From: Pseudorhodoplanes sinuspersici
GTDB lineage: Bacteria > Pseudomonadota > Alphaproteobacteria > Rhizobiales > Xanthobacteraceae
NCBI RefSeq assembly: GCF_002119765.1
Contig: NZ_CP021112.1
Coordinates: 186,001-250,000 of the forward strand
Direction: 5' to 3'
Length of the DNA: 64,000 nucleotides
Part shown: positions 52,300 to 64,000 of the stretch, in pieces
Position numbering within the stretch: position 1 is the first letter of the stretch
Layout: each line of letters opens with the position of its first letter
Notes under the pieces: model-generated
Database searches by the model: none
The model's input: only the letters and a program-made list of their open reading frames with translations
Told to the model about the DNA's origin: nothing
Translations under genes and position numbers: made by a program

Positions 52300-53139
52300 A
52301 TGGAGCCACAAGGGCCGAATCTGCCATCCGAGTGGCCTAAAACCCGGCCAATCGGCGTTTCCGTCAGTATCATGCTGGAAGGGTGGACGGACGACGCTGC
52401 GCCCGGCATCGGTCCGATGGGCAATCCGCTGCGCGCTGGCGTCTTCGATACGCAGGCCAAATCCTGGGCCGAATACGGTGCACGTACCGGAGCATGGCGG
52501 CTCCTCGACGTGCTCGAAGATACTAAGACGCATGCCGTTTTCTATGTCAGCGGTGTGCTCGCCGAGCGGCATCCGGCACTGATGCAAGCGATAGCGAAGT
52601 CCGGCCATACCGTTGCGGCGCATTCCTGGTCTCAGCACATCATCCCCGCCTATCAGACCCGCGAAGAAGAACACGCCGACTTGAAACGTTGCATCCAAGC
52701 CTTGCAAACATCGACTGGAAGCCGCCCGGAGGGGTGGATCAGTCCACGCGCGACGCCAAGCCAGAATACACCCGAGTTGCTCGCGCTTGAAGGCTTCTCA
52801 TGGATTGCCGACGCCTTCGACCGCGACCTTCCGTACCGGATCGACACAAAGTCCGGCCCCATCACCGCCGTTCCATTTACGATGGAGGTGAACGATTTCC
52901 CGCTTTGCATCCGGTACGGACATTCGCCTGACGCCTTCGTGCGGACATTGCAGGCGCTGCTTGATGGGTGGTCCGAGATCCGCAGTCCGTTCGCCTGCAT
53001 TGATTTGACTGCACACGCACACGTCTTCGGCCGTCCCGCCGGAGCGATCGCTTTCAAACAGGCCATCAGGCTCGTGCAGCAGAGCGCGGTTAGCTGGATG
53101 ACGACGCACGCCGAACTCGGCCGCCTGTTCCAACGCTGA
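52300..53139 (+). CDS. Polysaccharide deacetylase-family (CE4 fold) hydrolase
   Basis: 279 residues. The NodB-like fold is shown by RTGAWRLLDVLEDTKTHAVF near residue 61, the metal motif HTVAAHSWSQHIIPA near 107 (H-S-x-x-x-H type) and GWISPRATPSQNTPELLALE near 145. There is no signal peptide, so it is more like the cytosolic small-molecule members (PuuE allantoinase or cyclic imide/amide hydrolases) than a cell-wall deacetylase. It starts the deacetylase-GST-Bug operon. Confidence 0.83.
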   Translation: MEPQGPNLPSEWPKTRPIGVSVSIMLEGWTDDAAPGIGPMGNPLRAGVFDTQAKSWAEYGARTGAWRLLDVLEDTKTHAVFYVSGVLAERHPALMQAIAKSGHTVAAHSWSQHIIPAYQTREEEHADLKRCIQALQTSTGSRPEGWISPRATPSQNTPELLALEGFSWIADAFDRDLPYRIDTKSGPITAVPFTMEVNDFPLCIRYGHSPDAFVRTLQALLDGWSEIRSPFACIDLTAHAHVFGRPAGAIAFKQAIRLVQQSAVSWMTTHAELGRLFQR

Positions 53140-53204: not shown

Positions 53205-53978
53205 ATGAAGATGCTCACGCTCTACAACGCCGCCCATTCGACATGCAGCCAGAAAGTCCGCATCTGCCTTGCCGAGAAAGGCCTGAAGTTCGAGGATATC
53301 AAGCTTGATATCGGAAAGGCCAAGGAGCATCTGCGTCCTGAGTATCTTAAAATCAATCCGAACGGCGTCGTGCCAACCCTGATCGATGACAGCCAGATCA
53401 TCATCGATTCGAGTGTGATCTGCGAATATCTCGAAGAGAAATACCCCGATGTGCCGCTCTCCCCACCCGACCCCGTTGGGCGGGCCCGTATGCGCGCATG
53501 GATGCGATTTCTCGAGGAGGTGCCAACGGCGGCCGTGCGCGTTCCTTCCTTCAACATGGGGTTCCTGCCACGATACGAGGGAATGGACCGAAAGACATTT
53601 GAAGGCGCAGAATCCGATGTGCGGCCGATCCGCAAGCAATTCTATCGCCGCATGGGGCCGAACGGCTTCAAAAAGGAGGACGTCCAGGCCTCGCTCGAGC
53701 AAATGAGTAATACTTGCACGCGCATGAACGCCGCGCTCGAGAAAGGGCCTTGGTTGCTCGGCAGGCAATATACGTTGGCAGACGTTATTGTGGCGCCGCT
53801 CATCGATCGCATGGCCGACCTCGGAATGAGCTCGATCTGGGAAAAGACCTTTCCTCACGTTACCGCATGGTATGAGCGCACGAAAGCACGCCCCTCATTC
53901 CAGCAAACATTCTATCCAGGCGCACGCATGTCCGAATTCCTGAACCTTACGCCGGCAATCAAGGAGGATGCGCAATGA
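53205..53978 (+). CDS. Glutathione S-transferase family protein
   Basis: 257 residues. The thioredoxin-like N-terminal domain (1-80) has the catalytic-site region AAHSTCSQKVRICLAEKG and the glutathione-binding NPNGVVPTLIDD ... IIDSSVICEYLEE. The helical C-terminal domain ends with LLGRQYTLADVIVAPLIDRM. Bacterial GSTs of this type can act as dehalogenases, isomerases or ether-cleaving enzymes. AGGAA precedes the ATG; it overlaps the Bug gene by four bases. Confidence 0.9.
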   Translation: MKMLTLYNAAHSTCSQKVRICLAEKGLKFEDIKLDIGKAKEHLRPEYLKINPNGVVPTLIDDSQIIIDSSVICEYLEEKYPDVPLSPPDPVGRARMRAWMRFLEEVPTAAVRVPSFNMGFLPRYEGMDRKTFEGAESDVRPIRKQFYRRMGPNGFKKEDVQASLEQMSNTCTRMNAALEKGPWLLGRQYTLADVIVAPLIDRMADLGMSSIWEKTFPHVTAWYERTKARPSFQQTFYPGARMSEFLNLTPAIKEDAQ

Positions 53979-54943
53979 AGCGATTGACTGTTGCGATGGG
54001 CATGTTGCTCGCGGGATTCACCGCGGCATCGGCACAGCCGTTCCCAAACCGCCCGATCACAATCGTCGTTCCGTTCGCCGCAGGCGGCCCGATCGACACC
54101 ACGACCCGGATCGTCGCCGAGAAGATGAAGGACACTCTTGGGCAGCCGATCGTCATCGAGAATGTCGGAGGAGCCGCCGGAAGCCTGGCGGCCGGCCGGG
54201 TCGCAAAGGCTGCACCCGACGGATACACCCTGATCACGGGAATCTGGGGGACGCATGTCGCCAATGGCGCCATCTATCAGCTTTCTTACGACGTAAAAGA
54301 CGATTTCACACCAGTCGGCTTGATATCGTCGAACCCGCTCCTGATCGTATCGAGCAAGCAATTGCCGGCCAACTCGTTGCAGGACCTTGTCTCGTGGCTG
54401 AAGCAAAATCCGGACAAAGCGAGCCAAGGCACCTCCGGCGTCGGCAGCGTCGGCCATGTTGCGGGCGCCTTCTTTCACACCAAAACGGGCACCAAATTCC
54501 GATTCATCCCCTATCGAGGTCTGGCGCCGGCGATGCAGGATCTCGTCGCCGGCAACGTCGACTTGATGTTCGACACTCCTGCCACTTCTCTACCACACGT
54601 GAAGAGCGGAAACATTCGCGCCTATGCCGTAACGTCACCCCAACGCATCAAGGCCGCGCCAGATATTCCGACCGTGGATGAGGCAGGCCTTGCCGGCTTC
54701 TACATTTCGACTTGGACCGCACTCTTTGCTCCCAAAGGAACTGACAAAGATATTGTGTCCGTTTTGAACAAGGCCGTTATGATTGCATTAGCGGATCCGG
54801 CTGTCCAGAAGCGGCTTGCTGAAGTTGGCCAAGAGCCATATCCAGTTGAGCAGCAGACAACGGAGTATCTTGCACGGTTCCAAGCCGACGAGATCGAAAA
54901 ATGGTGGCCAATTATAAAAGGTGCCGGAATCAAAACTGACTAA
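53975..54943 (+). CDS. Bug/TctC-family periplasmic solute-binding protein
   Basis: 322 residues, ATGA overlap with the GST gene. Signal peptide LTVAMGMLLAGFTAASA then QPFPNRPITIVVPFAAGGPI. IENVGGAAGSLAAGRVAKAA near residue 66 and FIPYRGLAPAMQDLVAGNVD near 178 are Bug marks. Translational coupling of a periplasmic protein to a cytosolic GST is uncommon and implies import and processing of one compound. Confidence 0.92.
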   Translation: MKRLTVAMGMLLAGFTAASAQPFPNRPITIVVPFAAGGPIDTTTRIVAEKMKDTLGQPIVIENVGGAAGSLAAGRVAKAAPDGYTLITGIWGTHVANGAIYQLSYDVKDDFTPVGLISSNPLLIVSSKQLPANSLQDLVSWLKQNPDKASQGTSGVGSVGHVAGAFFHTKTGTKFRFIPYRGLAPAMQDLVAGNVDLMFDTPATSLPHVKSGNIRAYAVTSPQRIKAAPDIPTVDEAGLAGFYISTWTALFAPKGTDKDIVSVLNKAVMIALADPAVQKRLAEVGQEPYPVEQQTTEYLARFQADEIEKWWPIIKGAGIKTD

Positions 54944-55301: not shown

Positions 55302-56324
55302 GTGAACCGAAAAATTGCACTTCTGTCTGCATTAGCAATGTCGCTCGTGCTATCACCTGTCCAACTCCGTGCGCAGGGCGCTCCGGTCGTCCTGAAATTC
55401 GGCAGTTTTGTCTCTCCAAAGAGCATTACCAATTCGGTTTCGGTCCCGGCCTTCATCAAGGAAGTCGAAGCGGCATCCGAAGGCGCGCTCAAGATCGAAC
55501 ACTATCCCGGTGGCACGCTGGGCTCGAACCCAGCGACTCAGCTCAAGCTCGTCGAGGACGGCGTGCTCGATGTCGCCGAAGTAGTCGCCTCCTACACTCC
55601 CGGCCGCTTCAAGGAGCTCGACATGTTCGAGCTGCCGTTCCTGTTCAACACTACTGAAGAAGCGTCTCTGACCGCTTGGGCACTGTATCAGAAGAAACTA
55701 CTCAGCGGCTTCGACAACCTCGTGCTGCTCGGCATCGCCGAGGTCGGCCCATATACGCTGCATTCCCGCAAGGATGTTCCAACCCTTGCCAGCGCTTCGG
55801 GCCTGAAGATCCGAGCCGGCGGACCGATCTTCGGCGACACCATCAAGGCGATGGGTGCGGTGCCGATCGGCGGCATGCCGGCGCCGGCCATTGCCGAAAA
55901 CATTTCGCGCGGCGTTCTCGACGCGACCTTGATGGACGGCGGCAACCTGTTCAACTTCCGCATCACCGACGCCGCGGCATTCCATGTTACTAATGTCCAG
56001 CTCGGCAACATCGCGGTCATGTTCCCGATCAACAAGGCGAAATATGACTCGCTGCCGCCCAAGGCCAAGGCCGCGCTCGACAAGTTCGGTGGCGTCTGGT
56101 TCTCCAAGCTGCTGGCCAGCAATCTCGACAAGCAGGTGCGCGGGACCTTCGAAAGGCTTGCCAGCGAGCCCAAGCAGAAGCTGATCACCTGGAGCGACGC
56201 CGACATTGCCGCGCTCAAGGCAAAGACCGCATCGATCAAGGATCCGTGGGACAAGACGGTCAACGGCGTGAACCTCTATCAGGAACTGCTGCAGGCCTTG
56301 GCCAACGTCCGCAAGGGCTCGTGA
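55302..56324 (+). CDS. TRAP transporter solute-binding protein (DctP family)
   Basis: 340 residues starting GTG 55302 with CAGGAG about 12 bases upstream. Signal peptide KIALLSALAMSLVLSPVQLR then AQGAPVVLKFGSF. DctP marks are KIEHYPGGTLGSNPATQLKL near 67, ELPFLFNTTEEA near 112 and a long late helix. The conserved arginine that binds carboxylates is likely in LKIRAGGPIFGDTIKAMGAV near 170. It forms a tripartite importer with the next two genes; the ligand is probably an organic acid used by the downstream pathway. Confidence 0.93.
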   Translation: MNRKIALLSALAMSLVLSPVQLRAQGAPVVLKFGSFVSPKSITNSVSVPAFIKEVEAASEGALKIEHYPGGTLGSNPATQLKLVEDGVLDVAEVVASYTPGRFKELDMFELPFLFNTTEEASLTAWALYQKKLLSGFDNLVLLGIAEVGPYTLHSRKDVPTLASASGLKIRAGGPIFGDTIKAMGAVPIGGMPAPAIAENISRGVLDATLMDGGNLFNFRITDAAAFHVTNVQLGNIAVMFPINKAKYDSLPPKAKAALDKFGGVWFSKLLASNLDKQVRGTFERLASEPKQKLITWSDADIAALKAKTASIKDPWDKTVNGVNLYQELLQALANVRKGS

Positions 56325-56361
56325 CGCGTCGCCATCCTGACGACAACACGGGAGCCTCCGC

Positions 56362-56913
56362 GTGATCGCCGGGCTGACTGATCGGATGGCGCGCCTCGGT
56401 GCCATCATCGCGGCCACCGGGCTCCTGGCCCTGACCGTGCTCGCAATCGTGACGCTGCTGGACATCGCCGGTCGCGAGATGTTCAGCACGCCGATCAATG
56501 GCTTCAGCGATATCGCCGACCTGATCGTGGTTTTCGCTGCCGCCTCCTGTCTGCCGATCTCGCTGATCGAACGCCATCACGTCTCCGTGCGCTTTCTGGG
56601 CAGGATGAACTGGCGGCTGCGCGAGATACTGGATCTGCTCGGACACGTATTCACCCTCGGCGTGTTCATCCTGATGGCCTGGCAGGTCGCGGTCTATGCC
56701 GGCGAAGTCTATCAAAGCAGCCAAACGACCTGGCTGATCCGCATTCCGATCTGGCCATTGTGGTTCGCCACCAGCGCGATCATCGCGTTCTGCGTGCCGG
56801 CGCAGGCGATGATCGTCATCGCCCAGGCGCAGCGCGCCTTCTCGCCGGTAGCGCTTGCCGATCAATATGGCGAAGTCAGCGACGCAAAGCCCGGTACGGA
56901 ACCGCTGTCATGA
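56362..56913 (+). CDS. TRAP transporter small permease (DctQ family)
   Basis: 183 residues from GTG 56362, preceded by GGGAG. Four transmembrane helices as in DctQ; LLDIAGREMFSTPINGFSDI near residue 33 is the typical first-loop pattern (R-x-x-F-x-x-P-I). It overlaps the large permease by four bases. Confidence 0.92.
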   Translation: MIAGLTDRMARLGAIIAATGLLALTVLAIVTLLDIAGREMFSTPINGFSDIADLIVVFAAASCLPISLIERHHVSVRFLGRMNWRLREILDLLGHVFTLGVFILMAWQVAVYAGEVYQSSQTTWLIRIPIWPLWFATSAIIAFCVPAQAMIVIAQAQRAFSPVALADQYGEVSDAKPGTEPLS

Positions 56914-58214
56914 GTCCCATCGAAGTCGGTCTGATCGGCTTTGCTTGCCTGATCGCGGTGATCTTCCTGCAGGTTCCGATCGCTATCGCGATGGCGGTGA
57001 CCGGCGCCGCCGGCTACCTGATCCTCACCGGCAATCTCTCCGGCATGATCTCCCTGTTCGGAACGGAGACGGTCAACGTCCTGATGAACAAGGACTTTGC
57101 CGTCATCATGTTTTTCCTGCTGATGGGCGGCTTCGCCGGAGCGGCCAATCTCTCCGCCGACATTTACCGCTTTGCCAATGCGTGGATGGGACACATGCGC
57201 GGTGGCCTCGCGATGGCGACGATCATCGGCTGCGGCGGTTTCGGCGCGATCTGCGGCTCCTCGATCGCCACCACCGCGACGATGGCGCGGATCGCCATGC
57301 CGGAAATGGAGCGGCGCGGTTATAGCCTTGCGCTGTGCACCGGCTCGCTTGCCGCCGGCGGCACGCTCGGCTCGCTGGTGCCGCCATCGGTGATCATGGT
57401 GATCTATGCGGTGCAAGTCGAGCAGTTCATCATCGATTTATTCATCGGCGCGATCCTGCCAAGCATCCTGTCGGTGCTACTGTTTATCGCCGCAATTCGC
57501 ATTCAGCTCTATTTCCAGCCGCAGATGGCGCCGCTGTCGCCGCGGATGAATTTCGGCGAGCGGATAGCCATCACGCGAAAGACCTGGGGCGCGATCTTTG
57601 TCATCGTGGTGGTGATGGGCGGCATCTATACCGGAGTCTTCACCGTCAACGAAGGGGCCGCGATCGGGCTGGTGCTGGCGTTGGCCTTCGCTGTCGGGCG
57701 CCGGCTGCTGACGGGCGAGACATTCTGGAAAACCCTGCGCGAGCAGGCGGGCTCGATCGCGCTGCTCTATCTCATTCTGATCGGCGCCAACATCTTCGGC
57801 TATTTCATCACGCTGTCGCATATGCCCGAGGCGATGGTGGAATGGGTCAAAGCCTTGGGCATCCCGCCGATCGCGGTCATCTTCGTGCTGATCGTGATGT
57901 ATATCGTGCTCGGCTGCGTGTTCGACGCCTTATCCGGCATGGTGCTGACGCTGCCGTTCGTAGCGCCGCTGGTGGCGGGTCTCGGCTACGATCTGGTGTG
58001 GTGGGGTATCGTCAATGTCATGCTGATCGAAATCGGCATGATCACGCCGCCGGTCGGGATCAATGTGTTCGTCATGCACGGGTTGCGAAAGGATATTCCG
58101 CTCGCGACCATTTTCAGAGGCATCACGCCGTTTTTGCTCGCCAATCTGGTGGCGCTTGCCATCGTCGTTGCATTCCCGGAGATGGTGACCTGGCTGCCGA
58201 AAGCGCTCAAGTAG
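56910..58214 (+). CDS. TRAP transporter large permease (DctM family)
   Basis: 434 residues from the ATG at 56910 (ATGA overlap); the frame is open earlier but that part is read-through of dctQ. About 11-12 hydrophobic segments; family landmarks are GFGAICGSSIATTATMARIA near 110, MERRGYSLALCTGSLAAGGT near 132 and ITPPVGINVFVMHGL near 376. It provides sodium-coupled uptake with the DctP and DctQ proteins. Confidence 0.94.
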   Translation: MSPIEVGLIGFACLIAVIFLQVPIAIAMAVTGAAGYLILTGNLSGMISLFGTETVNVLMNKDFAVIMFFLLMGGFAGAANLSADIYRFANAWMGHMRGGLAMATIIGCGGFGAICGSSIATTATMARIAMPEMERRGYSLALCTGSLAAGGTLGSLVPPSVIMVIYAVQVEQFIIDLFIGAILPSILSVLLFIAAIRIQLYFQPQMAPLSPRMNFGERIAITRKTWGAIFVIVVVMGGIYTGVFTVNEGAAIGLVLALAFAVGRRLLTGETFWKTLREQAGSIALLYLILIGANIFGYFITLSHMPEAMVEWVKALGIPPIAVIFVLIVMYIVLGCVFDALSGMVLTLPFVAPLVAGLGYDLVWWGIVNVMLIEIGMITPPVGINVFVMHGLRKDIPLATIFRGITPFLLANLVALAIVVAFPEMVTWLPKALK

Positions 58215-58265: not shown

Positions 58266-60107
58266 ATGGAAACCCGCCAGCTTGCCTACTTCCTCGCAGC
58301 CTGCCAGCAGCAAAATCACATGCTGGCTGCCGAGGAATTGGGGATCGCGCCTTCGACGCTGTCGCAGAACATCACAGATCTCGAGCAGGAACTCGGCCTC
58401 GAGCTATTCAGGCTGGGCCAGGCCGGCTTCTATCCGACGATGGAAGCCCGCGCGCTCTATCAGGACTTCGAGCACGCGCTACGTGCGATCGAGACTGCGA
58501 GCGCCTATGCGCGCCGCAACGGCGAGTTGCACGAGATCCGTGTCGTTTCGTCGCTTAAATTTGCCCTCGGCCGGCTGTCGAAATCTGCCGGGCTTGCGGC
58601 CCGCTCGCTTGTCCGCATCCATCCCGAAATTTTCTTCGACATCGAGTTCGCATTGCATGATTCTGGCGCCGGCGGCCATCCGTCCGTCGCTGACGCAAGT
58701 GCAGATATCGTCATCGAATACGGCAGAGCGAATGCACGCGAAAAGGGCGAGGTGATTGCCACCGACGCGTGGTTCGCGGTGACCGGGCTCCGGCTCCCGC
58801 AATATTGGCGGACCAATGATTTGCTCGATGTCCTCAAACGGGTTCCGCTGGCGCTACCGAGACTGCCGGAGGAGGCCATTACTGCTGCCACGGCCTTCTG
58901 TCGTGATCGCGGCCTGCCACTGCCCCTGCGTCTCGACGAAGATATCGGAGGATTGCCGCAACTTGCACGGAGCGGCGATCCGTTCTGCCTCTTGGTGCCG
59001 CAAAGCATATTGTCCTCCCGATTGAAGCAACTGAGACTGTCTCTCATACCGCTGCCGAAAGATCTAAGCACGCCGATCGTCGCCCGCATTAGCTGTTCGC
59101 ATCCCGCCGCGCGCGACTTTGTCATCCGCATGCGCAGTGTGCTGGCGCGCAAGGAGATCAACAATATTTACAGTCCCTCGGTCTCGCTGAAGCAGGCCCG
59201 CTATTTCCAGTCGCTCTATGAGCACGGCAACATGACCCTCGCGGCCCGCAGCCTGAATGTCGCGCAGCCGGCGTTGTCATTTCAGTTGAAGAATCTCGAG
59301 CGCTCGGTCGGCACTCGGTTGTTCGAGCGTCGCCGCGACGGGTTGTCCAGCAACTCTGTGGCCGACCGGTTCGCGGCGGTGCTGCAGAAAGCCGACCATC
59401 ACATCGACGCCGCCATTCGCAAGGCCAATGAGCTTACGGCGAGCCAGCGGCACCGCATCACGCTCGGAATCGTACCACTGGCCGAACGGAGAGGTGTACT
59501 TGTCGAGGCTTTGAAGGCCGCGATCGCTGAGTGGACGGCGCTGCATGACGGTGTTGATCTGCGGATCTGGGAGGCGCCCACCGAGACGCTGCACAAATGG
59601 GTGAATTCCGGCACAGTCAATCTTGCTCTCGTCGAAACGGTGATGCCACATTCGTCCCGGATCGATCTAAACAGCCGCGACCCGCTCGGCGTCGTCACCA
59701 CGGGTGATACTTTGCTGCTGCCGCCCGGCGTTGTCGCCTTTGCGCGGCTTGCCGAGTTGCCGATGCTGTTGCCGTCAAGAGAGTTCGGCATCCGCCGGTT
59801 ACTCGACGAGGCGGCGGGAAAGGCCGGAATCCGGCTGCGTGTGCAGGCGGAAGTGAACTCGCTGATGATGGCGATGGCAATGATCGGCGACGGCGACTGC
59901 GCCACCGTTATGCCCTACGCCACGGTGCGCAAGGCCGTCTCGGACGGGGAGGTGCAGTTTCACAAACTTGTCGATCCAGAGGTTTGGCGCAAGCTATGCG
60001 TGATATTCCCGGCCGAGCGGTCGCTGACCGAAATTGAACGCAGCTTCGTCCGGGTATTCCGGCGTCAGCTCGCGCTCCATGCAGGCGACCGCGCTGTGGT
60101 TCAATAA
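58266..60107 (+). CDS. Tandem double LysR-type transcriptional regulator (two full LTTRs fused)
   Basis: 613 residues, twice the length of a normal LysR protein. The first helix-turn-helix is at about 4-60 (TRQLAYFLAACQQQNHMLAA then EELGIAPSTLSQNITDLEQE), followed by an effector-like domain to about 295. A second complete helix-turn-helix begins near 306 (SLKQARYFQSLYEHGNMTLA then ARSLNVAQPALSFQLKNLER), followed by another effector domain to about 605. There is no stop or frameshift between them. It lies 51 bases after the TRAP operon and overlaps the UbiD gene tail to tail by seven bases. It probably controls the TRAP and UbiD-urocanase-DUF917 genes. Confidence 0.9.
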   Translation: METRQLAYFLAACQQQNHMLAAEELGIAPSTLSQNITDLEQELGLELFRLGQAGFYPTMEARALYQDFEHALRAIETASAYARRNGELHEIRVVSSLKFALGRLSKSAGLAARSLVRIHPEIFFDIEFALHDSGAGGHPSVADASADIVIEYGRANAREKGEVIATDAWFAVTGLRLPQYWRTNDLLDVLKRVPLALPRLPEEAITAATAFCRDRGLPLPLRLDEDIGGLPQLARSGDPFCLLVPQSILSSRLKQLRLSLIPLPKDLSTPIVARISCSHPAARDFVIRMRSVLARKEINNIYSPSVSLKQARYFQSLYEHGNMTLAARSLNVAQPALSFQLKNLERSVGTRLFERRRDGLSSNSVADRFAAVLQKADHHIDAAIRKANELTASQRHRITLGIVPLAERRGVLVEALKAAIAEWTALHDGVDLRIWEAPTETLHKWVNSGTVNLALVETVMPHSSRIDLNSRDPLGVVTTGDTLLLPPGVVAFARLAELPMLLPSREFGIRRLLDEAAGKAGIRLRVQAEVNSLMMAMAMIGDGDCATVMPYATVRKAVSDGEVQFHKLVDPEVWRKLCVIFPAERSLTEIERSFVRVFRRQLALHAGDRAVVQ

Positions 60108-61465
60108 TCCGCAATTGTCTTTCGCACGCGGTCCATCACGCCTTTCGGCAGCAATGCGAATTCCGATCGCGAGTTGGCAGCACCGTCGCCGGGTCGGGTG
60201 GCGGCGACCATGCCGATCTTGGTCACCAGCAAATCCTCGTGCACCGGGTCGCAGCGATCGGCTTTCACGCCGGGCAGGACGATCAGGTCTTCATGGCCAC
60301 GGAAGCGTGCGGCCAGCGACCATTCGACGGCGGTCGGATCTTCCGGATCGATGTCGTCATCGACCACAATCACGTTCTTGAACAGGTTGACCTGACCCAT
60401 CGCCAGCAGGATCGCGCGCTTGCCTTCGCCCGGCCGCGGCCGGTGCATGCTGATGATGGCGTGCAGGCGGCCCATGCCGCCATCGGTGACGAGCACGCGG
60501 CGGACGGAAGGGATGATGCGCTGCAGAGCATCGCAGGCGACGGCCTCGATCGCGACCGCCCCGAGCAGGCAATGCTCCGGCGTAAATGCCGGTAATATCG
60601 ACTGAAAAACCGGATTTCGGCGATGCGTGACGCAGCCGATCTCGCCGCCGGTGCCCGGACCGTAATCTACGTAGAAACCGTGAAACTCGGACACCAAGCC
60701 CTCCGGAACACGGTCCTCGGCGCGCAGCTCGCCTTCGAGGATGATCTCCGCATCGGCCGGCACCTCCAGATCGACGGTGCGGCATTTGACGAGCCGCAGC
60801 GGCTCACCGAGCAGACCACCGGCCACGTCATATTCGTCGTCACCCAGCCCCAGATACATCTGCGAACCGAGCAGCACCTGCGCGCAATTGCCGATCGCCA
60901 CCGCGATCGGCAAGGCCCGGCCCATCGCGGCGGCCTTGTCGGCCAGGATGTTGAGATGATGGTTCTTGGCAATCCCGGCCATGATCCGTCCGCCGCCGTC
61001 GAGCCGCAGGCGGGCGATCGAGACGTTGCGGCGCCCGGTCTCCGGATCCTTGGCGACGATCACGCCGGCTGTGATGTAAGGGCCGCTCTCGCGCTCGAAC
61101 CAGGTCGGCGCCGGCAGCAAGGACGGCAGATCGAGCGGGCCGTCATGCACCACCTCCTGCACGGGGGCCGGCCCCTCCTGCATCACCGGCGCGATCGGCC
61201 GCCGCAGTGCCTGCAGGATGAAGCGGTGCAGATCGGCACGCGGCGCGCCTAGCGCCGTTGCGAGCCGCTCACGCGAATTGAACACATTGCCCACGACCGG
61301 AATGCTGTGGCCCTCCACGGCCTCGAACAGTTGCGCGTCGCCCTTCATGCGCTCCATCAGCACGGCGGCGATTTCAAAGCGGGGATCGACGCTGCGGCGG
61401 ACGCGATGCAGTTGGCCGTCCGCCTCCAGCGTGGTGAGAAAATGACGAAGCGCCTGCGATGCCAT
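60101..61465 (-). CDS. UbiD-family prenylated-FMN-dependent decarboxylase
   Basis: 454 residues. UbiD marks are VVGNVFNSRERLATALG near residue 57, NVSIARLRLDGGGRIMAGIA near 146 (prenyl-FMN and metal region with the catalytic Arg), EGLVSEFHGFYVDYGPGTGG near 260 (catalytic Glu pair context) and VVDDDIDPEDPTAVEWSLAA near 375. Such enzymes reversibly decarboxylate aromatic, heteroaromatic or unsaturated acids. No UbiX flavin prenyltransferase gene is in the window. It follows the urocanase-like gene by 14 bases, so it is in that operon. Confidence 0.9.
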   Translation of the reverse strand: MASQALRHFLTTLEADGQLHRVRRSVDPRFEIAAVLMERMKGDAQLFEAVEGHSIPVVGNVFNSRERLATALGAPRADLHRFILQALRRPIAPVMQEGPAPVQEVVHDGPLDLPSLLPAPTWFERESGPYITAGVIVAKDPETGRRNVSIARLRLDGGGRIMAGIAKNHHLNILADKAAAMGRALPIAVAIGNCAQVLLGSQMYLGLGDDEYDVAGGLLGEPLRLVKCRTVDLEVPADAEIILEGELRAEDRVPEGLVSEFHGFYVDYGPGTGGEIGCVTHRRNPVFQSILPAFTPEHCLLGAVAIEAVACDALQRIIPSVRRVLVTDGGMGRLHAIISMHRPRPGEGKRAILLAMGQVNLFKNVIVVDDDIDPEDPTAVEWSLAARFRGHEDLIVLPGVKADRCDPVHEDLLVTKIGMVAATRPGDGAANSRSEFALLPKGVMDRVRKTIADY

Positions 61466-61479
61466 CGTTCGTGATCCGC

Positions 61480-63129
61480 TCAGGCGGGAGTCAGGCGGAA
61501 GTGCCGCACCTGCTTCGCCGCCGCTTCGTCATAGGCTTCGTCGTAGCCGGCGTCAGCGTAGCGCATGATCCCAAGCGACGTATCGTTGTCGAGCGAGAGC
61601 TTCAGGCGCTCCTCCGCCGCGCGGCTGCCATCGGCGATGAGGGTGACACCGGCGCTGGTCATATAACCTGAATATCCGCCGCCGCCGGAATGGATCGCTA
61701 CCAAGTCGGCCTTGGACGCGCAATGTGCCATGGCGTTGATCAGCGGCCAGTCGGCGATGGCGTCAGAGCCGTCCTTCATATTCTCCGTCATGATGTTGGG
61801 GTGAGCCATCGCGCCAGCATCGAGATGATCGCGCGTAAATGCCACCGGCCCGTCGAGCACGCCTTCGCGCACCATGGTGTTGACCGCCAGTGCAAGCGCG
61901 GTGCGATCGCCATGACCAAGCCAGGCAATGCGCGCCGGCAATCCCTCGAACGGGACATACTGACTGGCCAGTTTGATCCAGTTGGTGACGATCTTGTTGT
62001 CGGCAAATCGCTTCAGCGCGAACTCGTCGATCTTCTTGATATCGGAGGTGGAATTGGACAACGCGATCCAGCGGAACGGGCCGATGGCGCGCGCGAAAAG
62101 CGGCCGCAGAAACGCCTCGGTGAAAATCGGGATATCGAAAGCGTCGGCGACGCCACCATGCTTGGCCTGGGTGCGGATCAGGTTGCCATTGTCGAACACC
62201 ACCGATCCGGCCTTCTGAAAGCCGAGCATCGCCGTGACATGCTTGGCGATCGAGCGTGTCGATTCGCTCATCAGCCGCTTCGGATCGGTCTTGCGCAGCG
62301 ACCGCGCCTCATCCAGCGTCATCGTGTCCGGCACATAGCCATAGACCAGATCATGCGCCGAGGTCTGGTCGGTGACGATATCGGGCACGATGCCTCGGGC
62401 GAGAATATCAGGATAGATCGTCGCCGCATTTCCGAGCAGGCCGACCGAAATCGGCTTTTTCTCGGCGCGCGCCTTGTCGATCATCGCCAATGCCTCATCG
62501 AGCGAGTTCGCCCGCTCATCAAGGTAGCCAATCTCCAGCCGCCGGGCGATCCGCGCCTCGTCGACGTCGATGCACAGGATCGCCGCCTCGGCCATGCGGC
62601 CGGCCAGCGGCTGCGCGCCGCCCATGCCGCCAAGTCCGGCGGTGAGGATGAAGCGGCCTTTCAGGTCGCCATGGAAATGGCGTTCCGCAATCCGCATGAA
62701 GATTTCATAGGTGCCCTGAATGACGCCTTGCGAACCGATATATTGCCAGTCGCCCGCGGTCAGTCCGCCCCAGCAGATCAGCCCCTTCTTTTCCCAGTCG
62801 TAGAAATTCTCCGCCTTGGCCCATTGGCCGATCATGTTGCAATTGGCCATGATGACGATCGGCGCATCGGCATGGGTGCGGATCAGCCCGATCGGCTTGC
62901 CCGATTGCACGATCAGGGTGTCTTCCTCATCCATGGTCCGCAGCGTTTCAACGATCTTGTCATGCGAGGGCCAGTCGCGGGCGGCCCGACCGAGCGCCGC
63001 ATAGACGACGAGATTATCGGGGTCTTCGCCGACCGCGAGCACATTCTCGAGCAGGCGCAGCAGGCCTTCCTGACGCCAGCCTTTACAGCGCAGATTACTG
63101 CCGGTCGTGACTGCGAATTCGCGCTTCAT
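61480..63129 (-). CDS. Urocanase-family hydratase, divergent paralogue (likely S-methyl-thiourocanate or related hydratase)
   Basis: 549 residues covering the whole urocanase fold. Conserved blocks are LIVQSGKPIGLIRTH near residue 73, WQYIGSQGVIQGTYEIFMRI near 127, ILTAGLGGMGGAQPLAGRMA near 160, DHLDAGAMAHPN near 440 and MRYADAGYDEAYDE near 523. It departs from HutU at expected active-site points: HutU-type LHHGGGVGMGFSQHSG reads IHSGGGGYSGYMTSAG, the ARICW cysteine is Ala (ARIAW), and RHADAGY is RYADAGY. No other hut genes flank it; a DUF917 gene lies 11 bases upstream. A sulfur-substituted urocanate is the favoured substrate, by context. Confidence 0.82.
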   Translation of the reverse strand: MKREFAVTTGSNLRCKGWRQEGLLRLLENVLAVGEDPDNLVVYAALGRAARDWPSHDKIVETLRTMDEEDTLIVQSGKPIGLIRTHADAPIVIMANCNMIGQWAKAENFYDWEKKGLICWGGLTAGDWQYIGSQGVIQGTYEIFMRIAERHFHGDLKGRFILTAGLGGMGGAQPLAGRMAEAAILCIDVDEARIARRLEIGYLDERANSLDEALAMIDKARAEKKPISVGLLGNAATIYPDILARGIVPDIVTDQTSAHDLVYGYVPDTMTLDEARSLRKTDPKRLMSESTRSIAKHVTAMLGFQKAGSVVFDNGNLIRTQAKHGGVADAFDIPIFTEAFLRPLFARAIGPFRWIALSNSTSDIKKIDEFALKRFADNKIVTNWIKLASQYVPFEGLPARIAWLGHGDRTALALAVNTMVREGVLDGPVAFTRDHLDAGAMAHPNIMTENMKDGSDAIADWPLINAMAHCASKADLVAIHSGGGGYSGYMTSAGVTLIADGSRAAEERLKLSLDNDTSLGIMRYADAGYDEAYDEAAAKQVRHFRLTPA

Positions 63130-63140
63130 TGTCTGTTTCC

Positions 63141-64000
63141 TTACCGCTTGGCCGCCAGCGCATAATCGGCGATGGAAATGCCGAGCGCCTTTTCGCAGAT
63201 CGGATAGACACTCGGATCGGTCACGCTCGACGACAGCGGAATGTGCTCTCTGGCGACGCGCAGGATCACAAGCTCCTGGCCTTCGTGGATTTCGCCGACG
63301 CTCATCGGCACGCCATCCGGGCTGAATGTGGTGATGACGTCGGGATAGGTCGCAAGACGTTTGCCGCCGGCATCATCCACCGCCATATATTCGTTCATCA
63401 CATGCAAGGTGAAGGACGCAGCGCCCGTGCCGACCGTCAGCGTACCGACATCGAAGGCTTCGCGGGTATAGGTCACGGCCTTTTTCGTCACCTTGCCGCT
63501 GCCGATCACCGCGCCATTGGTCTGCCGGCAGACGGCATCGATGATCGCCGTGCCGCCCCTGGATTCGGCGCCGATGATCGCAGCGCCCAGATCGAGCGCC
63601 ATGGTGATTCCGCCAAGCGCGGCATGGTCGCGCACATAGGATGCCGGCACCGGATTGCGGCAGGAAGCGATGAAGCCGCCGGACATATCGGCAGCGGTGC
63701 GCAGGATCGGCGAGACCTTGCCGGTCGCACCGCGCACGATCAGTTCGATATAGGCGTTGTTGGCGCGGTTACCGCCGACCGCCGACTGGATCATCGGCTC
63801 CGGCGAATTGGCAAGGCCGATCGAACCCATATCGCCGGTCGGATGCGCGCGCAGATCGCCGACAGCATCCACAACCTTGCAGCCGAGCATGGCCGACGGC
63901 AGCCAGGCATTCAGCGTCGATGATTTACCGTTCTGTCCGATGATCAGGCCGGCGATCGGCGCGCCCAGTTCGTCTTCCACCAGCCGCACGGCATTGACGT
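63141..64000 (-). CDS. DUF917/S-methyl-thiohydantoin desulfurase-family protein (5' cut by window edge)
   Basis: About 286 residues are visible and the frame is open to the right edge, so the N-terminal part (the family is usually about 360 residues) is missing. Visible blocks are LGCKVVDAVGDLRAHPTGDM, AHPTGDMGSIGLANSPEPMI, then ADMSGGFIASCRNPVPASYV, and GTAIIDAVCRQTNGAVIGSG; the tail PDVITTFSPDGVPMSVGEIH matches the family's C-terminal beta region. Characterised members desulfurise S-methyl thiohydantoin made from S-methyl-thiourocanate. Immediate linkage to a urocanase paralogue supports that activity or a close variant. Confidence 0.8.
   Translation of the reverse strand, partial: VNAVRLVEDELGAPIAGLIIGQNGKSSTLNAWLPSAMLGCKVVDAVGDLRAHPTGDMGSIGLANSPEPMIQSAVGGNRANNAYIELIVRGATGKVSPILRTAADMSGGFIASCRNPVPASYVRDHAALGGITMALDLGAAIIGAESRGGTAIIDAVCRQTNGAVIGSGKVTKKAVTYTREAFDVGTLTVGTGAASFTLHVMNEYMAVDDAGGKRLATYPDVITTFSPDGVPMSVGEIHEGQELVILRVAREHIPLSSSVTDPSVYPICEKALGISIADYALAAKR

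Follow-up and report, generated by a model that had tools for sequence, protein, structure and literature searches.

A predicted thiourocanate degradation operon without a recognisable ergothionase gene in Pseudorhodoplanes sinuspersici

The stretch of 64,000 nt analysed here (the window, C1:186001-250000 of a 100% complete host genome that consists of a single contig of 5,971,615 bases) contains a gene whose product is, by family, a thiourocanate hydratase (ErtB), with the activity predicted accordingly. ErtB and its neighbours form a B-C-D-E core that, judged by the protein families, is the already known pathway for the degradation of ergothioneine (Ert), a widespread microbial and dietary antioxidant. 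Compared with the complete A-E pathway, the host has B, C, D and E, whereas an ergothionase was not recognised in its genome. The best explanation, and in our judgement a reasonably probable one, is that the route starts at imported thiourocanate: the host cell would take up thiourocanate that other organisms have formed from ergothioneine, ErtB would add water to it to yield thiohydantoin-propionate, ErtC would remove the sulfur to give hydantoin-5-propionate, ErtD would open the hydantoin ring to form N-carbamoyl-L-glutamate, and ErtE would convert the latter to glutamate. In the Ert pathway, it is the ErtC step that sets the sulfur free; the small products are named here from pathway knowledge. 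The four core reactions, assigned from the families, are very likely correct. The features of the locus are:

61480..63129, minus strand: ertB, predicted thiourocanate hydratase, 549 aa (NF058530, tree and motifs)
63141..64000, continuing to C1:250241, minus strand: ertC, predicted thiohydantoin desulfurase (DUF917/S-Me-THD), 366 aa (NF058529, PF06032, PF20906)
outside the window, upstream of ertC, same strand: ErtE, predicted N-carbamyl-L-glutamate amidohydrolase (NF058540, 583 bits, cut-off 520)
outside the window, upstream, same strand: ErtD, predicted hydantoin-5-propionate amidohydrolase (NF058538, 764 bits, cut-off 600)
60101..61465, minus strand: UbiD-family decarboxylase, 14 bp downstream of ertB (PF01977/PF20695/PF20696; TIGR00148, 298 bits)
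58266..60107, plus strand, convergent with ubiD: LysR-LysR fusion, 613 aa, candidate regulator (Pfam domains)

The preliminary description had proposed a urocanase paralogue with a DUF917 partner, and both proteins are real. The 549-aa frame contains all three Pfam urocanase domains, and the partner, the start of which lies outside the window (285 of the 366 residues are within it), was confirmed as a DUF917 protein. ErtB reaches 1035 bits with the thiourocanate hydratase model NF058530, above the curated cut-off of 930, and full-length ErtC passes NF058529 with 602 bits (cut-off 440). Thus, all four proteins, B, C, D and E, exceed their equivalog cut-offs, and their genes form one directon. 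The genes beyond position 64000 had been suggested as the place to look for a hydantoinase and an ergothionase-like lyase; ErtE and ErtD are indeed encoded there, whereas a lyase of this kind was detected neither at the locus nor elsewhere in the genome.

Ergothionase is described in PMC13405746 as a trimethylamine lyase without the MIO cofactor and as a relative of PF00221. The lyase at the ert locus L012, which was used as the reference, has ergothionase 6s7j as its best solved match (299 bits). Ammonia-lyases read GSxGASGD at the MIO site, and the lyases of the ert loci L012, L070, L021, L032 and L022 are one residue shorter there. Altogether, 39 of 44 lyases at ert loci have G-S/T-x-G-x-x-D, and the remaining five are cut, broken or unread at the motif. 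The PF00221 scores are 411 bits for L012, 466 bits for L070 and 264 to 295 bits for L021, L032 and L022, and motif-checked ammonia-lyases reach 498 to 628 bits. These scores do not separate ergothionases from ammonia-lyases, and therefore the MIO motif was read wherever it was decisive. In the complete host genome, the PF00221-based search detected no MIO-less lyase: at E 0.001 the single PF00221 protein is HutH of the hut operon, which has the MIO motif ASGD, and the L012 ergothionase, used as a query, also matched only the hutH gene.

The same pattern was observed throughout the family. Among 198 sampled family genomes, 13 encode ErtB (E 1e-220), and an intact MIO-less lyase is present in none of the 13. 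Two of them (G047 and G214) have no PF00221 protein at all, a third (G147) has only a fragment of 31 bits, and the remaining ones have one or two full-length PF00221 proteins, all with ASGD (the lyase of G034 was read as that of G002, the same genome according to the contig positions). Many of the comparison genomes are incomplete MAGs; of the family genomes, G199 (a single contig) and G096 (two contigs), like the host, are complete or close to it. In the order sample, 30 of 397 genomes encode ErtB, including the family members G000 and G056. A lyase of the MIO-less ergothionase type is present in 26 of the remaining 28: 25 genomes have one that scores 236 to 294 bits, in the range of L021, L022 and L032, with the motif read in three, all MIO-less; in G511, the genome of locus L009, it is a lyase of 420 bits with the motif GSIGAGD. 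The two exceptions, G428 and G569 (90% complete), have ASGD lyases only.

A wider view was obtained from the best 80 of 97 ErtB loci from named genomes (agreement of contig positions served to assign L009 to G511 and L024 to G211; the family genomes G034, G047, G147, G211 and G214 are also within this set). At 44 of these 80 loci, an ergothionase-like gene lies within the fetched stretch. For the other 36, the genomes comprise 17 in which the score indicates such a gene at another place (16 full-length ones with 277 to 302 bits and the motif unread, and G1141 in pieces), L009 with one by motif, one unsure case (L057) and 17 with none. The last 17 include L006; where full-length PF00221 proteins are present in them, these have ASGD; G009 (L018) has an additional 92-bit PF00221 fragment at a contig end, with the motif region missing. 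The unsure case is an Acinetobacter genome (G025) with two lyases that have a longer motif gap (GSVGY), and it was excluded from the recount. A further kind of MIO-less PF00221 lyase, with GSVGY or GSAGY, was seen at L139 and L140 (G025) and at L143 (G609).

The nearest relative of the host ErtB is that of L006 (82% identity), which is paired with the host at a support of 97 in a tree built from 88 rows of ErtB and 8 of HutU (a quick tree with SH-aLRT support only and 22 open forks; the duplicates L098-L101, of L083, L024, L007 and L008, had been removed before tree and counts). Beside ertB, on the opposite strand, a frame at L006:727-1566 contains two disjoint ergothionase-like pieces, which are 51% identical to L012 over 63 residues and 33% over 80 residues; it looks like a decayed ergothionase copy. 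Mapping the lack of ergothionase onto the tree gave eight changes, at least five of which are forced by well supported branches. This implies repeated loss or gain, the direction of which is not told by the count alone. In the host lineage, ergothionase has apparently been lost.

Because an entry enzyme is not recognisable, the host may live on the half-digested product of other organisms. Uptake of thiourocanate is inferred from the absence of ergothionase and from the transporter genes that neighbour the ert genes of relatives. LIV-type transporter genes precede ertD in the same orientation in L007, L019, L024 and L102; in L020 they are divergent. At the host ert locus, a LIV transporter was not found; instead, a polar-amino-acid ABC set and TRAP genes are nearby. 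The ABC set, with an SBP_bac_3 protein, follows a divergent GntR gene beyond the upstream end of the operon, and genes for DctP and DctM (Pfam), with a 183-aa ORF between them, occupy 55302-58214 and adjoin the LysR fusion. A DctM gene is also near the ert genes of L014. All three transporter types, found near various ert loci, are candidate thiourocanate importers only. Further along, 53975-54943 encodes a TctC-type binding protein, with no TctA or TctB recognised among the annotated neighbours, and 52300-53139 a polysaccharide-deacetylase-fold protein with a weak likeness to allantoinase PuuE (109 bits of 425).

The candidate regulator has an HTH_1 domain in both halves and a recognised LysR_substrate domain in the second half only. 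Relatives of at least 250 bits occur at 9 of the 88 ert loci, the host included, five without and four with ergothionase (5/25 of the ergothionase-less loci versus 4/62 of the others); the four are of the Pseudochrobactrum type. Long proteins resembling the fusion were seen at ert loci of Terasakiella, Pseudochrobactrum, Rhodopseudomonas and Afipia and at L014. Taken together, scavenging is favoured by the four equivalog models, by the separate position of HutU in the tree (see below), by HutH as the sole PF00221 protein of the host, by the contrast between none of 13 ErtB genomes within the family and 26 of 28 in the order outside it, by the relic in L006, by the LIV genes of relatives, and by a LysR fusion that the host shares with four ergothionase-bearing loci.

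Several points speak against plain scavenging. The host locus lacks a LIV transporter; ergothionase is missing as well from two of the 28 order genomes outside the family; and neither UbiD nor the four genes that separate ertD from the GntR gene would have a role in it. These four encode, upstream of ertD and on the same strand, a flavin monooxygenase resembling HsaA, a PF01613 flavin reductase, a VOC protein similar to extradiol dioxygenase, and a protein of the FAH fold. From FAH to UbiD, including the ert genes, there are nine genes on one strand (the start codons of ErtE, monooxygenase, VOC and FAH are uncertain). A UbiD relative lies among the ert genes or immediately after them at 7 of the 88 tree loci, the host included, and all seven lack ergothionase. 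In each of the seven, UbiD is on the ert strand, in the order D-E-C-B-UbiD (four loci) or D-E-UbiD-C-B (three loci), and the EG-x-VSE-F/Y-HG stretch is conserved. The host genome also contains a UbiX-like flavoprotein (PF02441, a 205-residue frame, with UbiX inferred from the length).

To compare 25 ergothionase-less loci with 62 others (L057 was left out), linkage was scored by tblastn. UbiD of at least 250 bits was present at 7 of the 25, an acyl-CoA dehydrogenase at six, a CoA-transferase III at six and a LIV-type binding protein at five, and each of them at 0 of the 62. At least one of the four modules was found at 14 of the 25 ergothionase-less loci and at none of the 62; the other 11 have none. 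Fisher tests on these counts treat related loci as independent, and contig ends truncate some of the loci; in a kinship-aware pair test with five pairs, no module was significant. A number of neighbour groups from an initial clustering proved to be antisense ORFs in high-GC DNA.

Genes for a CoA-transferase III and two acyl-CoA dehydrogenases lie near the ert genes in Terasakiella pusilla (L011:619-4169), in L029 from 15198, and in L014, L059 and L067, each without ergothionase. Such enzymes would fit an oxidation of reduced thiourocanate to thiourocanate. For the host this route was not adopted, as its genome (G000) has no relative of the dehydrogenase at E 1e-90. Eight of the 13 family genomes have relatives of this acyl-CoA dehydrogenase, with scores of 306 to 418 bits, and the ergothionase-bearing G006 has one of 608 bits away from its ert locus; therefore, the link between the dehydrogenase and the lack of ergothionase is not exclusive.

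A more general reading, which can be held only tentatively, is that ergothionase-less ert operons are a recurrent second class that uses partly processed thio-imidazoles released by others, via three entries. Thiourocanate would be imported directly by LIV-type transporters; the acrylate would be remade from reduced thiourocanate by CoA-transferase and acyl-CoA dehydrogenases; and a thio-imidazole carboxylic acid would enter through the linked UbiD.

The main rival to scavenging is a novel kind of entry step within the host itself. Thiourocanate would then be made in-house by an unseen reaction, either by a trimethylamine lyase with a different fold or by UbiD, flavin monooxygenase, VOC and FAH converting a carboxylated or aromatic-linked thio-imidazole. 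It would account for the conserved UbiD in its two arrangements at seven ergothionase-less loci and for the four genes that precede ertD on the same strand, and the CoA-transferase and acyl-CoA dehydrogenase genes at other ergothionase-less loci are in line with it. However, the ergothionase-less loci share no module, and 11 of the 25 have none of the four tested; the monooxygenase, for which a search of 288 other genomes of the class at E 1e-90 gave no relatives, looks locally added. We regard an in-house entry step as rather unlikely.

A very unlikely source of thiourocanate is 2-thiohistidine, converted by HutH or by a second lyase of the MIO type. The model for the latter is given by L103 (L103:2597-4201) and L050 (from 14594), where a MIO-type HAL-like gene is located about 3 kb from ertB, together with UbiD and without ergothionase. 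The host, however, has only the HutH of its hut operon, and the ErtB-bearing family genomes G047 and G214 do without any PF00221 protein. Scavenging of thiourocanate remains the reading that we favour.

Two further alternatives concern the substrate of ErtB. The S-methyl-ergothioneine branch, in which the pair would act on S-methyl-thiourocanate and its thiohydantoin, comprises related families, and the S-methyl models match both proteins, but the scores stay below the cut-offs for the hydratase (NF058531, 753 bits versus 880) as well as for the desulfurase (NF058532, 268 bits versus 450), whereas the thio models are passed. The solved structures point in the same direction. All PDB matches of ErtB are titled urocanate hydratase or urocanase, and the top match is 7ned (818 bits), which we take to be the thio enzyme. 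Other solved urocanases reach 567 to 613 bits in the PDB search, and 6uek 224 bits. Among them, 8q9u/8q9v (590 bits), presumably the S-methyl enzyme although the PDB name is only urocanate hydratase, lack the HSGGGGYSGYM stretch. The S-methyl hydratase model matched 96 of 299 genomes at E 1e-200, none above the cut-off, and hence the tree contains no S-methyl reference. Since both cut-offs were missed, the S-methyl branch was rejected as highly improbable; the data support the non-methylated thiourocanate branch as the predicted one. Of the original proposal, sulfur-imidazole catabolism was borne out by the four equivalog models and the split between ErtB and HutU, and the S-methyl variant was not.

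The chance that ErtB is an ordinary urocanase paralogue in histidine breakdown is practically negligible: it shares 52% identity with the HutU of the same genome and exceeds the cut-off of the hutU model TIGR01228 (696 bits versus 375), which is a broad model, but all three HutU motifs are altered in it, a feature of almost every ErtB row, it belongs to a separate clade, and a hut set with its own hutU is present elsewhere, so that this candidate was rejected. The three residue changes listed in the preliminary description, HHGGG to HSGGG, ARICW to ARIAW and RHADAGY to RYADAGY, are exact with respect to the HutU of the genome. In the alignment, HSGGG is found in 87 of 88 ErtB rows, PARIAW or PARIGW in 88 of 88 and RYADAGY in 85 of 88, versus HHGGG, PARICW and RHADAGY in 8 of 8 HutU rows each. 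By their distribution, the three changes mark the ErtB family. The suggested phylogeny placed ErtB outside the HutU clade, as the HutU rows form one side of a branch with a support of 100. The statement that hut genes are not nearby also holds: the annotated neighbouring genes include none, and a complete hut operon was looked for just outside the window and not found. Rather, hutF, hutI, hutH and hutU are located at about C1:1221800-1227700, approximately 1 Mb from the ert locus.

If the lower pathway has been retained and its first enzyme lost, thiourocanate and related thio-imidazoles are likely to be shared nutrients beyond the gut, too. If, in addition, the reading of a second operon class is true, soil alphaproteobacteria share the work of recycling the sulfur and nitrogen of ergothioneine. 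The genes for UbiD, CoA-transferase/dehydrogenase and transporters are testable candidates for other entry points. In the literature searched, in which the core papers are thinly covered, no description of a thiourocanate operon without ergothionase or of a link between UbiD and ergothioneine was found.

The closest known system is the Ert pathway with ergothionase, which we take to be of the Burkholderia sp. HME13 type. The host resembles it in having B, C, D and E above the cut-offs in one directon, and differs in that an ergothionase was not found, that UbiD is located behind ertB, and that ertD is preceded by genes for a flavin reductase, a monooxygenase, a VOC protein and a FAH protein. 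The S-methyl-ergothioneine branch (NF058531/NF058532) has a homologous hydratase and desulfurase, with the host proteins below both cut-offs. From the Hut operon, ErtB differs in the marker motifs, as a urocanase-fold relative of HutU encoded apart from the host hut genes. The best solved relative of the linked UbiD of the host is 6h6v (296 bits), which we take to be the UbiD decarboxylase PtHmfF with a furandicarboxylate role; an Arg of 6h6v, which presumably binds the second carboxylate, is aligned with an Ile in the host protein.

A parallel to scavenging comes from the gut. According to PMC13405746, thiourocanic acid obtained by cross-feeding supports Bacteroides xylanisolvens in its growth, gut anaerobes have a thiourocanate desulfhydrase that degrades this acid, and gut anaerobes gain growth and ATP from thiourocanate or release H2S (Zhou 2025, Feng 2025, as cited there). 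The likeness is that one organism makes thiourocanate and another uses it, and the difference is that the host, a member of the order Hyphomicrobiales, would use a hydratase route to glutamate, which is predicted from its genes.
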